A DNA stretch of 64,000 nt from Lacihabitans soyangensis (lineage in GTDB: Bacteria > Bacteroidota > Bacteroidia > Cytophagales > Spirosomataceae). Both the position numbers and the translations under genes were made by a program. Below the pieces are notes generated by a model that searched no databases, was not told where the DNA came from, and was given only the letters and a program-made list of their open reading frames with translations. The stretch is taken from assembly GCF_024343775.1 (NCBI RefSeq), contig NZ_RJUF01000198.1:1-64000 (forward strand), written 5' to 3'. Below, piece by piece: positions 40,017-43,986 of this stretch. The stretch's first letter is position 1; each line of letters begins with the position of its first letter.

Positions 40017-41297
40017 TCACAATCCAGTTGCAACCGTTTTCAAACCACGTTCACCTATTAAAACATTACGAACTTTCAGGTCACGGAAAATACCAATGGG
40101 TGAAAGAGCCGCACCAGCTCTCAATCTTGCCTCGGCTACAATTGGTCTCACATCAGTGCGATAGGCTGCTTGAATAATTTCTTGGGCTTTTACTACGTCA
40201 TTGCTTTCACGTGCGTCCTCTAATGCTTTTGAATCAACCAAAAGCGATTGAGCATAAGCTACCATAATGGCTTCTACTGACTGTAATAAATCCTCTAAAG
40301 GATCTTTGATATTATGAGATGCATCAATCATCCAACCAAATCCAGAGCCCAATTCAAATGGAGCGTTATTTGGCTGAGTTCCGTGCGTCAATTCATTGAA
40401 AATCAAAAATAACTGATAAGGATTGATACTTCCAACTGTCAGGTCGTCGTCGCCATATTTCGAATCATTGAAATGAAAACCACCCAATTTACCTTCCATC
40501 ATCAATAGACTTACTATTTGCTCAATGTTGGCGTTTGGCAAATGATGACCCAAATCCACCAACGTGAATGCCTTTTCTCCCAATTTTGATGCATACAAAT
40601 GTGATTGTCCCCAATCGCCCACAGTCATAGAATAAAAGTTCGGCTCAAAGGCTTTGTATTCGACAAACAACTTCCAATCTGAAGGAAGGGCAGCATATAT
40701 TTCTTGTAAACTCTCCAATGTATTCTCAAAAGCCTTTCTAAAATTCAACTGGCCAGGAAAACATGAACCGTCTGATAACCAAACTGTTAGAGATTTAGAA
40801 CCTAAATCTATGCCATGTTTTATAACTTCGATGTTATGGTCTATTGCTTGCTTGCGTATGGCTTTGTTGACATTTTGCAAAGAACCAAATTTGTAGGTCA
40901 AAGCTTGATCTGGCTGGTCTTGAAAAGTGTTAGAGTTTACAGCATCAAAAGCCAATCCATGCTGAGCTGCTAGGGTCTGTATTTCCTTAGGAGATGTAGG
41001 AATATCCCAAGGAATGTGTAAAGAAATAGCACCAGAAGTTTTGTTTAACTTATGCAAAAGTCCTACGTCTTCAATTTTTTCTTCAAGGCTCCTTGGCTCT
41101 CCTCCACCAGGAAAACGTCCGAAACGTGTTCCACCAGTTCCTAATGCCCAAGATGGAATGGCAACTTGGAAGTCTATTAATCGTTGAATTATTTTTTCAA
41201 CACCTTCTGTTTCGTTTTTTGCGAAATCAAAGAGTGTTTTGTGTTTCGCCATTTGTTTGGCGTTATGGTCATCTATTATATTTTGAGAAATTATCAT
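40017..41297 (-). CDS. rhaI: L-rhamnose isomerase (RhaI-type TIM barrel)
   Basis: 426 aa. It interconverts L-rhamnose and L-rhamnulose. Motifs of the RhaI/xylose-isomerase-like TIM barrel: GTGGTRFGRFPGGGEPRSLE (loop with substrate contacts), LHIPWDIP, KSLTVWLSDGS, LFVEYKAFEPNFY (metal Glu), LVDLGHHLPNANIEQ and GGFHFNDSKYGDDDL (metal Asp). It lies next to the rhamnulose-phosphate aldolase/dehydrogenase gene, from which it is separated by the GxxExxY insertion. No rhamnulokinase gene appears in the window. Confidence 0.95.
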   Translation of the reverse strand: MIISQNIIDDHNAKQMAKHKTLFDFAKNETEGVEKIIQRLIDFQVAIPSWALGTGGTRFGRFPGGGEPRSLEEKIEDVGLLHKLNKTSGAISLHIPWDIPTSPKEIQTLAAQHGLAFDAVNSNTFQDQPDQALTYKFGSLQNVNKAIRKQAIDHNIEVIKHGIDLGSKSLTVWLSDGSCFPGQLNFRKAFENTLESLQEIYAALPSDWKLFVEYKAFEPNFYSMTVGDWGQSHLYASKLGEKAFTLVDLGHHLPNANIEQIVSLLMMEGKLGGFHFNDSKYGDDDLTVGSINPYQLFLIFNELTHGTQPNNAPFELGSGFGWMIDASHNIKDPLEDLLQSVEAIMVAYAQSLLVDSKALEDARESNDVVKAQEIIQAAYRTDVRPIVAEARLRAGAALSPIGIFRDLKVRNVLIGERGLKTVATGL

Positions 41298-41306
41298 CTT
41301 TTGTTG

Positions 41307-41357
41307 TTTTATAGAACACGGATCAACACAGATTGGACACGGATTCTTTTTTAAATT
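41307..41357. repeat. Left inverted repeat of the GxxExxY unit
   Basis: Reads TTTTATAGAACACGGAT... inward on the plus strand. It is the inverse partner of 41808-41873, with about 26 bp near-identical plus ACGGATT and a T-run. Confidence 0.85.
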
Positions 41358-41371
41358 GAATTACTAAATTT

Positions 41372-41758
41372 CTAAATGGGTATGTACTTCAAATGGTTAT
41401 CGTAAACTTTTCTTTTGAATTCTGCTTTTTTTCCAAAATTAAATAGTAATCCTACTTCAATACTTGTTCCTCTTAAATAATTAAGCAATTGAGCCTCATT
41501 CTCTTCAAGTAAACATTCAGCTGCTTTTAATTCAATTATTACCAAATTTTCAACAATTAAATCAGCAAAATATTCACCAACTTTATACCCTCGAAACCAA
41601 ACATCTATTTTTTTTTGAGCTTCTATTTCCAAACCTTCCTCTCTTAATGCCAAAAACATTGCATTTTGATAAACCTTTTCTAAAAAGCCGTACCCAAGTT
41701 CATTATAAACCTGATAATAAACTTTAATAATTCTTTGGGTTAATACATCATGCTTCAT
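41372..41758 (-). CDS. GxxExxY-family protein
   Basis: 128 aa from the ATG at 41758 (MKHDVLTQRIIKVYYQVYNE). An upstream 40-codon extension reads through the inverted repeat and is unlikely to be genuine. The namesake motif is G24-F-L-E27-K-V-Y30. It has a compact nuclease-like core (FADLIVENLVIIELKAAE) resembling PD-(D/E)xK proteins. Function unknown; members are small and often multicopy in Bacteroidota. It sits between inverted repeats inside the rhamnose genes. Confidence 0.85.
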   Translation of the reverse strand: MKHDVLTQRIIKVYYQVYNELGYGFLEKVYQNAMFLALREEGLEIEAQKKIDVWFRGYKVGEYFADLIVENLVIIELKAAECLLEENEAQLLNYLRGTSIEVGLLFNFGKKAEFKRKVYDNHLKYIPI

Positions 41759-41807
41759 TATTTCGAATAGTTCTTTTGGGCAATGAATAACACAATAGAT
41801 CAAGAAA

Positions 41808-41873
41808 AATTTTAAAAAAATCCGTCCGGGCCGCCGGTGCGGTCCCATCAGTGTTAATCCGTGTTCCATAAAA
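41808..41873. repeat. Right inverted repeat of the GxxExxY unit
   Basis: On the minus strand it reads TTTTATGGAACACGGATTAA... and then contains a GC-rich 16-nt insertion relative to the left repeat, before ACGGATT and a T-run. It ends just downstream of the aldolase/dehydrogenase stop codon. Confidence 0.85.
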
Positions 41874-41874
41874 A

Positions 41875-43986
41875 TCACCTATAAAAGCCCATGGCTACAC
41901 CACCATCCACATTAATAGCGTTTCCAGTTGACTTATTTAGCAATCCACCTACAAATGCGAAACATGCATTAGCAATATCATCTGGTAAAATAATTTCATT
42001 CAATAGTGTCCTTTTTGCATAATATGCTGGCAGTTCCTCTACGGTAATTCCGTAGGCTTTGGCACGGCCTTCGGCCCATCCTCCTGCCCAAATGTTTGAG
42101 TCGGAGATAACAGCATCTGGATTTACAGTATTTACTCTGATCTTATCGGCTCCCAATTCTGCAGCCATTAATCTGGTCATGTGAGCTTGAGCAGCTTTTG
42201 CAGATCCATACCCAGGATTGTTAGGCCCGGCCACTACGGCATTTTTGGAAACTATATTTACGATATCTCCTCCAATACCTTGTTTACGCATGATAGCTAC
42301 CCCTGCTTGTGATACTATAAACTGACCTTTTACCAAAATATCATACAGTCTATCCCACTCTTCAAGACTGTGCTCTGCAATAGATTTTGAGATACTAATT
42401 CCTGCGTTGTTTACCACAATATCAACACCTCCGAAAGCTAAGGCTGTATTTTCGAATGCCGCAAAAGCCGAATCTTTATCAGTAACATTTAACAAAGTAG
42501 AGGCCACAGCATCTCTGCCGAAAAGTTTCAGAAATTCTTCGGTTGCCGAGTCCAGTCTCTCTTGGTTGATATCGTTCAAAATCACACAAGCACCTTCTTC
42601 AGCAAATTTCCTTGCAATTGCCTTTCCAATCCCACCAGCACTTCCGGTAATCAAGGCAATTCTTCCTGAAAGAGCCTTTGGCTTAGGCATTCTTTGTAGT
42701 TTTGCTTCCTCTAATAACCAATACTCTATGTCAAAGGCCTCCTGATGTGGTAATGCAGTATATTCGGAAACTGCCTCAGCACCCTTCATTACATTTATGG
42801 CATTGGTATAATATTCCGATGCTAAACGGGCCATGGTTTTATCTTTCGCAAATGTAAACATACCAACTCCTGGGTAAAGTATTACCACAGGATTAGGATC
42901 ACGCATGGCTGGCGAATTTGGATGTTTGCAGGCATAATAGTAGGCTTTGTAACCCGTTCTGTATTCTTCGAAAACTGAAGTTAAGTATTCTTTATTTTCA
43001 ATTTTTGCAGGGTCTAAAACCAAAGGAGCGATTTTAGTACGTAAAAAGTGGTCAGGACAAGAAGTCCCTAATGGAGCCAATTTTGCCAAATCATTCGAAT
43101 TTATAAATTCCAAAACTCGGCTATCATCAGTGAAATGGCCCACCATTTTACGCTCAGAAGAGCAATATCCTCTTAGCGTTGGAGCTAATGCTGCTGCTTT
43201 AGCTTTTCTATCTGCATCTGCTAAACTTTCTATTTTTTGTCCTCCAAAAACTGGTCTAGTTTTACCAAAATTATCCTCTAAATATTGAGCACATTTTTCT
43301 ATAACTTCTAAAGTGTTGATATAGCTAGAATATGCAGTATCTCCCCAAGTGAATAATCCATGAGAGCCCAACATAATTCCTTTTAGCGTGATGCCTTTGG
43401 CTGCTGCTTCGTTCAGGCAAGCTCTGAGTTTTAATCCCAAGTCAAATCCTGGCCTTTGCCAGCCCACCCAACCAATTTCTCCATTGAATAATTCTTCAGT
43501 TATTTTTTTACCATCCTTAGCAGCGGCAATCGCTATGGCAGCATCAGGGTGTAAGTGATCAATATGTTTAAATGGCAAAAATCCATGTAATGGTGTGTCA
43601 ATGGAAGGAGCTTTGGAGGCCAAATCAAAAATGCAGTGATTGAAAAGTTCTACCATTTCGTCTTCATGCTCAATACCTCTATATACGTTCTCAAGGTTCA
43701 ATAACCTTTCCATATAAAGTGCCGCACAGCCTGACTTTTTCAAGGTACCGATGTCACCACCCGAACCTTTGATCCACATTACCTGTGTTTCTTTGCCCGT
43801 TAAGGGATCTTTGTCTGATATTTTAACCGAGGTGTTACCACCTCCATAGTTTGTTAATCTTAGATCGGCCCCAAGGAGATTGGAGCGGTATATAAATAAC
43901 GCAACTTCATCGCCAGCCATTTCAGCAGCTTTGGCCTCGTCCCATAGATAATTTGCGTGTTTGAAACTGTCTTTATTAAACGACAT
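41875..43986 (-). CDS. rhaD: Bifunctional rhamnulose-1-phosphate aldolase / short-chain dehydrogenase
   Basis: 703 aa. Residues about 1-420 form a class II aldolase domain (GADLRLTNYGGGNTSVK; IDHLHPDAAIAIAAAKDGKK; MLGSHGLFTWGDT). Residues about 440-703 form an NAD(P)-dependent short-chain dehydrogenase: TGxxxGIG at 447-454 (TGSAGGIG) and catalytic Y593/K597 (YGSAK). The fusion matches the RhaD aldolase/alcohol-dehydrogenase type. It splits L-rhamnulose 1-phosphate to dihydroxyacetone phosphate and L-lactaldehyde, and the second domain may oxidise lactaldehyde. The lactate product would feed the nearby lutABC. Confidence 0.93.
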   Translation of the reverse strand: MSFNKDSFKHANYLWDEAKAAEMAGDEVALFIYRSNLLGADLRLTNYGGGNTSVKISDKDPLTGKETQVMWIKGSGGDIGTLKKSGCAALYMERLLNLENVYRGIEHEDEMVELFNHCIFDLASKAPSIDTPLHGFLPFKHIDHLHPDAAIAIAAAKDGKKITEELFNGEIGWVGWQRPGFDLGLKLRACLNEAAAKGITLKGIMLGSHGLFTWGDTAYSSYINTLEVIEKCAQYLEDNFGKTRPVFGGQKIESLADADRKAKAAALAPTLRGYCSSERKMVGHFTDDSRVLEFINSNDLAKLAPLGTSCPDHFLRTKIAPLVLDPAKIENKEYLTSVFEEYRTGYKAYYYACKHPNSPAMRDPNPVVILYPGVGMFTFAKDKTMARLASEYYTNAINVMKGAEAVSEYTALPHQEAFDIEYWLLEEAKLQRMPKPKALSGRIALITGSAGGIGKAIARKFAEEGACVILNDINQERLDSATEEFLKLFGRDAVASTLLNVTDKDSAFAAFENTALAFGGVDIVVNNAGISISKSIAEHSLEEWDRLYDILVKGQFIVSQAGVAIMRKQGIGGDIVNIVSKNAVVAGPNNPGYGSAKAAQAHMTRLMAAELGADKIRVNTVNPDAVISDSNIWAGGWAEGRAKAYGITVEELPAYYAKRTLLNEIILPDDIANACFAFVGGLLNKSTGNAINVDGGVAMGFYR

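Follow-up and report, generated by a model that had tools for sequence, protein, structure and literature searches.

Small intergenic elements bounded by inverted arrays of short repeats form a family in the genome of Lacihabitans soyangensis and turn over at fixed sites, which in close relatives are occupied, otherwise filled or empty. One such element, located in the window that we analyzed (a stretch of 64,000 nucleotides at the start of contig NZ_RJUF01000198.1), carries a gene encoding a GxxExxY protein. GxxExxY genes are generally enclosed by inverted arrays, and the sequence of the arrays co-varies with that of the protein. We judge the chances to be about even that this segment represents a dispersed intergenic mini-element in its gene-bearing form, that the nuclease it encodes acts on the element's own end arrays, and that the gene-less copies are derivatives.

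A GxxExxY gene between rhaI and rhaD

Positions 41307–41873 of the window comprise a GxxExxY (PDDEXK_3) gene enclosed by an inverted repeat. The segment lies between a rhaI-type gene (40017–41297, minus strand, downstream in transcription; 25 of the 39 genomes searched, including this one) and a rhaD-type aldolase/dehydrogenase gene (41875–43986, minus strand, upstream in transcription). The outer arms of the repeat (41307–41338 and 41842–41873) are 32 nt long with a complementarity of 88%, and their local-alignment score is 44 compared with 25.75 for the 99% quantile of control windows from the same kind of loci. Each end is composed of three units of ~10 nt, GAACACGGAT, a middle unit ACnGAT that ends in GAT, and GACACGGAT, and the two ends are mutually inverted; 10 nt is about one turn of the DNA helix. 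The array adjoining rhaI (TTTTATAGAACACGGATCAACACAGATTGGACACGGATT; 41307–41348, plus strand) matches our end model, R1, at 41311–41348 (37.8 bits, E = 7.6e-9), and the array adjoining the rhaD-type gene (41816–41873, minus strand) matches it at 41816–41869 (27 bits). The latter contains a 16-nt GC-rich insertion at 41826–41841 of the plus strand, which reads CGCACCGGCGGCCCGG on the gene strand and is placed at GAC^ACGGAT. The first-pass annotation, made from the sequence without database searches, had described the inverted repeats, the insertion in the right-hand repeat and a GxxExxY gene sited between rhaI and rhaD-type genes, and all of these are borne out. The GC-rich module is also seen in other ends: many end arrays (L003, L004, L005, L006, L010, L041, L255 and L265) contain a word of 15–16 nt (such as CGCACCGGCGGCCCGG, AGCATCGGCTGCCGC or CGGTACTCCGGCCGC) inserted in the same register, GAC^ACNGAT, and the presence of these words varies between orthologous sites.

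The gene (41372–41758, minus strand; stop codon at 41372–41374) encodes 128 aa and matches TIGR04256 (3.8e-37, 127 bits against a cut-off of 35) and PF13366 (2.4e-39, 134.8 bits against a cut-off of 22). PDDEXK_3 was the only Pfam family to match the gene; neither the S23/IVP family nor the HUH Y1 transposase family did. The 40-codon upstream extension (41759–41878, minus strand) that had earlier been described as read from the repeat is an open frame that crosses the end array, but it begins with a GTG (41878) that falls immediately beyond the repeat and overlaps the stop codon of the rhaD-type gene. Because the open frames of the orthologues (142, 148 and 130 aa) do not conserve the 168-aa frame found here, ATG 41758 is the likely start and the extension is probably untranslated; translation from the GTG was rejected on the same comparison.

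Relative to orthologues at the same rha site, the gene has a dN/dS of 0.03–0.07, indicating strong purifying selection, and the GxxExxY motif (G24, E27, Y30), D66, E76xK78 and Q90xxxY94 are invariant in 54 proteins. The protein is conserved as a predicted PD-(D/E)XK nuclease of the Cas4/RecB type. The best PDB match to its AlphaFold2 model (pLDDT 91.4) is 4ic1, the Cas4 protein SSO0001 (Foldseek E = 7.8e-5; Z = 10.1 in VIA), and other top structure matches are LHK-Exo, MGME1, AdnA and Hjc; a Z score near 10 supports the predicted fold and not a function. A search of the PDB by sequence returned no match, and PADLOC reported no defense family. One of the eight GxxExxY copies of this genome (L027:1471–1878) has a lysine in place of the glutamate of ExK and is probably catalytically dead, and several copies of the family elsewhere contain stops.

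Dispersed copies and turnover at fixed sites

The ends are dispersed in the genome, as seen with the segment itself as DNA query and with the pattern GAACACRGATN{2,18}ACACRGAT, which has 20 matches compared with one for the reversed control. An end model built from 23 ends and run on this genome and nine congeners identified 46 ends here; six congeners have 42, 24, 53, 22, 11 and 43 ends, and three more distant ones have 0, 1 and 0. The dialect is therefore limited to part of the genus. Most ends in this genome form inverted pairs that are 100–300 bp apart and enclose no gene. The outcome that the first-pass annotation had set against its own reading, a repeat found nowhere else and one arrangement in all relatives, is contradicted, as further copies of the repeats are many and the arrangement varies. 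A 790-bp element in G003 (C62:45243–46031; L075:1744–2532) has ACACGGAT ends and contains an ankyrin-repeat ORF in place of GxxExxY, and at G001:C8:34755–34982 (L078) end arrays of one dialect stand in direct tandem, in the same orientation and with a period of ~45 bp.

The rhaD–rhaI gap contains a GxxExxY element in the congeners G005, G003 and G006. In G001 it contains a gene-less element of 165 bp whose ends are of the same kind, and in G002 and G008 a shorter gene-less insert of another repeat dialect (GCAAAGTCACGAAG/CTCTGTGAAACTC). The empty site that had been proposed as a check exists in G007 and G009, where the gap measures 18–33 bp only. Other genera have other short inverted repeats in the gap or a Y1 (IS200-like) transposase gene; the latter, of RAYT type, was seen in two of them (L056:3046–3591 and L063:2787–3350). 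The gap seems to be a recurrent landing site. Gene trees place G002 as the sister of G005, yet the fillings of their rha gaps are unrelated, and the filling of G002 is 96% identical to that of G008 compared with 85–87% identity in flanking gene sequence, the high identity being restricted to the gap except that it extends slightly into rhaI. We count this discordance in favor of exchange limited to the element. Between this genome and G005, the dS of the GxxExxY gene is 0.30 compared with 0.65–0.75 in the rha genes, which is suggestive of horizontal exchange, but the gene is short.

Comparable differences are found at other sites. The GxxExxY element of C17, which provides the stop codon of the upstream gene, measures 591 bp here compared with 40 bp in G002; the GxxExxY gene of C40 is absent in G003; and at the C37 site, where this genome has a GxxExxY gene, G008 contains 478 bp with arrays at the ends, and G001, G002, G003 and G005 have 55–77 bp. 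The gene-less site e29 measures 310 bp here compared with 0 bp in G001, and site e194a is occupied in this genome and G001 by a gene-less ACACGGAT element and in G002, G003 and G005 by an element that encodes a four-helix IVP protein and has repeats of the AGCTATT type. The discordance of the rha gap recurs at e175, where one version is common to this genome, G008 and G002 (0.87–0.90) and the sister G005 has another. Mean identity at other orthologous sites is 0.715 in elements compared with 0.825 in flanks. Several other gene-less sites are common to most congeners; the elements therefore persist long and their movement is slow. Target-site duplications were sought by comparing occupied with empty sites, and none could be fixed as the flanks are too diverged or too AT-rich for a call; no transposase was found between matching ends in the loci examined.

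Inverted arrays around GxxExxY and IVP genes

Of the eight GxxExxY genes of this genome, six lie between paired inverted arrays, with a different dialect for each gene, and three protein clades stand side by side with three dialect groups in this genome alone. The eight proteins are too diverse to serve as one scan alignment; clade A was used for a profile scan over 84,980 species genomes (GTDB), which gave 77 usable loci (mostly Bacteroidota, also Planctomycetota, Nostoc, Pyrinomonadaceae and a Rhizobium-named MAG), and loci of clade B were drawn from a genome search. A further set of 37 clade-B/C loci comprises 30 from that search and seven own-genome genes of clades A–C. The inverted-array score exceeds the 95% quantile of control windows from the same loci at 70% of the clade-A loci and the 99% quantile at 61%; the corresponding values for the 37 further loci are 81% and 76%. 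Cross-paired loci, a conservative control in which dialects are shared, give a similar contrast. Autocorrelation of the flanks peaks at a lag of 10 (0.33/0.32 compared with 0.26), with a second peak at 20–23.

The dialect varies with the clade of the protein: CRCARAG is typical of clade A, ACRCNGAT of clade B, ACAGGATT of a subgroup and AGGATT/TGATT of clade C; ACGCTGAT and CACAAAG are among the array dialects. Protein similarity correlates with 6-mer similarity of the flanks (r = 0.38 overall, 0.36 in clade A and 0.62 in clade B; none of 2000 permutations reaches these values), a Mantel correlation that is partly due to shared ancestry because related genomes inherit gene and flank together. 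Across 121 genomes of the host's bacterial family, 57 of which have a clade-A GxxExxY copy (E = 1e-30), repeat and gene co-occur for clade A (28/57 with the gene compared with 7/64 without, p = 6e-6) and for clade B (20/24 compared with 30/97, p = 4e-6), both values being inflated by phylogeny and by the gene's own ends; p is 0.0014 for clade B when only genomes with at least three B ends are counted. Some genomes, including G109, G117 and G131, have 41–52 B-dialect ends and no clade-B gene (E = 1e-15), although a clade-A gene is present in the first two. These three belong, with G079 and G101, to one genus that has 37–64 B-dialect ends per genome, many of them 60–90-bp palindromes, with or without a clade-B gene. 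A search of the open-access literature yielded no description of the bracketing arrays, which is weak evidence of absence.

Because GxxExxY genes are in general bracketed and the dialect follows the protein, the nuclease is the prime candidate for an actor on the ends. The earlier description of the segment as a MITE-like cassette survives in that its copies are dispersed, bounded by inverted repeats and also found gene-less, with the site empty or otherwise filled in relatives; the part that treated the nuclease-like protein, lacking a transposase of its own, as chance cargo is not supported in that wording, given the same bracketing and dialect. Inverted arrays are also found around genes of an unrelated protein family. 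Genes encoding four-helix 23S_rRNA_IVP proteins lie within inverted arrays with units of 7–8 nt, and 21 of 31 such loci score at least 30 compared with 2.3% of cross-pairs; their array units in the host's bacterial family are AGCTATT, GGTAAGTT and GACAAGA (L074, L205–L234). Bracketing alone therefore does not point to the nuclease, and the similar bracketing links the GxxExxY element to 23S intervening sequences (IVS).

Proposed mechanism, alternatives and known systems

In the mechanism that we propose, the GxxExxY protein would recognize its own array dialect and nick or resect DNA at the array, and host recombination or repair would then copy the element into other intergenic sites, including those already occupied by one of its relatives. 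Internal deletion would have given rise to the gene-less copies, which would depend on the protein acting in trans. We infer that the nuclease drives the movement of the element. More generally, and with confidence that falls a little short of even, we posit that GxxExxY proteins may be the dedicated nucleases of a widespread and undescribed class of mini mobile elements with helically phased inverted arrays, in which gene-bearing and gene-less forms spread without a transposase and bracketed IVP genes represent a second, convergent member. GxxExxY proteins are common in Bacteroidota, and the co-varying arrays provide them with a concrete candidate substrate and a transposase-free mobile-element hypothesis. 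If true, this would explain part of the short intergenic repeats in these bacteria, and the bracketing of IVP genes sets the mobility of IVS/S23 elements, a long-standing question, in a wider frame.

A different division of roles, which we regard as possible but somewhat doubtful, is that the arrays constitute a general mini-element spread by host recombination or by a transposase acting in trans, with GxxExxY, IVP and occasional small genes as beneficial cargo. The IVP genes share the same architecture and are the strongest argument for such a general device, in which GxxExxY might be a passenger, and the B-dialect element of G003 with its ankyrin-repeat ORF, the greater number of gene-less ends than of genes, the genomes with many ends and no clade-B gene and the Y1 transposase genes in the rha gap of two other genera are consistent with it. 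However, an indifferent passenger would not be expected to have a dialect that tracks its clade, also inside one genome. The invariant catalytic residues and the co-occurrence of repeat and gene over 121 genomes, inflated as it is by phylogeny and own ends, likewise argue against cargo.

We think it unlikely that the segment is instead an RNA-level, IVS-like element, whose ends would pair in the transcript as a ~30-bp stem excised by RNase III, which would be tolerated through processing of the rhaD–rhaI message and would spread rarely by an RNA/cDNA-type or recombinational route. The terminal stem does form in the predicted RNA fold of the segment (z = −4.59; none of 100 shuffles folds as well), genes of the IVS protein family (IVP) have similar brackets, and the Coxiella 23S IVS is similar in build, with a length of 428 nt, a 28-bp terminal stem, a small S23 ORF and excision by RNase III (PMC4990558). 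However, the element lies between genes, its protein is of predicted DNA-nuclease type instead of an IVP, its period of 10–11 nt fits the turn of the DNA helix and not a requirement of dsRNA, and an Rfam search of the element returned no family. That the gene is an ordinary one flanked by terminators or by repeats that arose by chance, a reading for which short hairpins are common enough between genes and some arrays directly follow stop codons, is so improbable as to be refuted by arms that stand 500 bp apart around the gene, by the 46 dispersed ends and by the brackets of homologous genes in different genera and phyla, which clearly exceed the controls.

The element that we propose is both RAYT/REP-like and IVS-like and is a member of neither group, as it fails the defining features of both. 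RAYT (TnpA-REP) genes and their REP, BIME and REPIN sequences are alike in having a single gene between inverted short repeats, many gene-less palindromic intergenic copies and co-evolution of gene and repeat, the last of which has been stated for TnpA-REP (PMC8266576). They differ in that their enzyme is an HUH Y1 protein in contrast to the predicted PD-(D/E)XK nuclease, and their repeat is a single tagged hairpin in contrast to arrays of ~10-nt units; furthermore, it is here the gene-bearing unit itself that is found at alternative sites. The IVS of 23S rRNA are similar in size (0.4–0.6 kb), in a terminal inverted repeat that can pair into a stem of ~28–32 bp, in a single small ORF and in sporadic occurrence (PMC4990558), whereas the segment is intergenic in a catabolic locus (rhaI/rhaD-type), has phased array ends and contains a nuclease-type gene and no S23/IVP ORF. 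Like MITEs, the gene-less copies are short, non-coding, bounded by terminal inverted repeats and dispersed between genes; in contrast, the complete element contains GxxExxY, and the loci examined yielded no DDE-type parent element. A classical MITE should have a target-site duplication. The protein has the predicted fold and the E-D-ExK-QxxxY residue set of Cas4, RecB and lambda-exonuclease-type nucleases; unlike Cas4, it is only ~128 aa long, is not encoded beside CRISPR or recombinase genes and, with one cysteine in 128 aa, could not form an Fe-S cluster site. Within the GxxExxY/PDDEXK_3 family (TIGR04256, PF13366) the gene is a clear member, and bracketing by arrays is a feature of that family.
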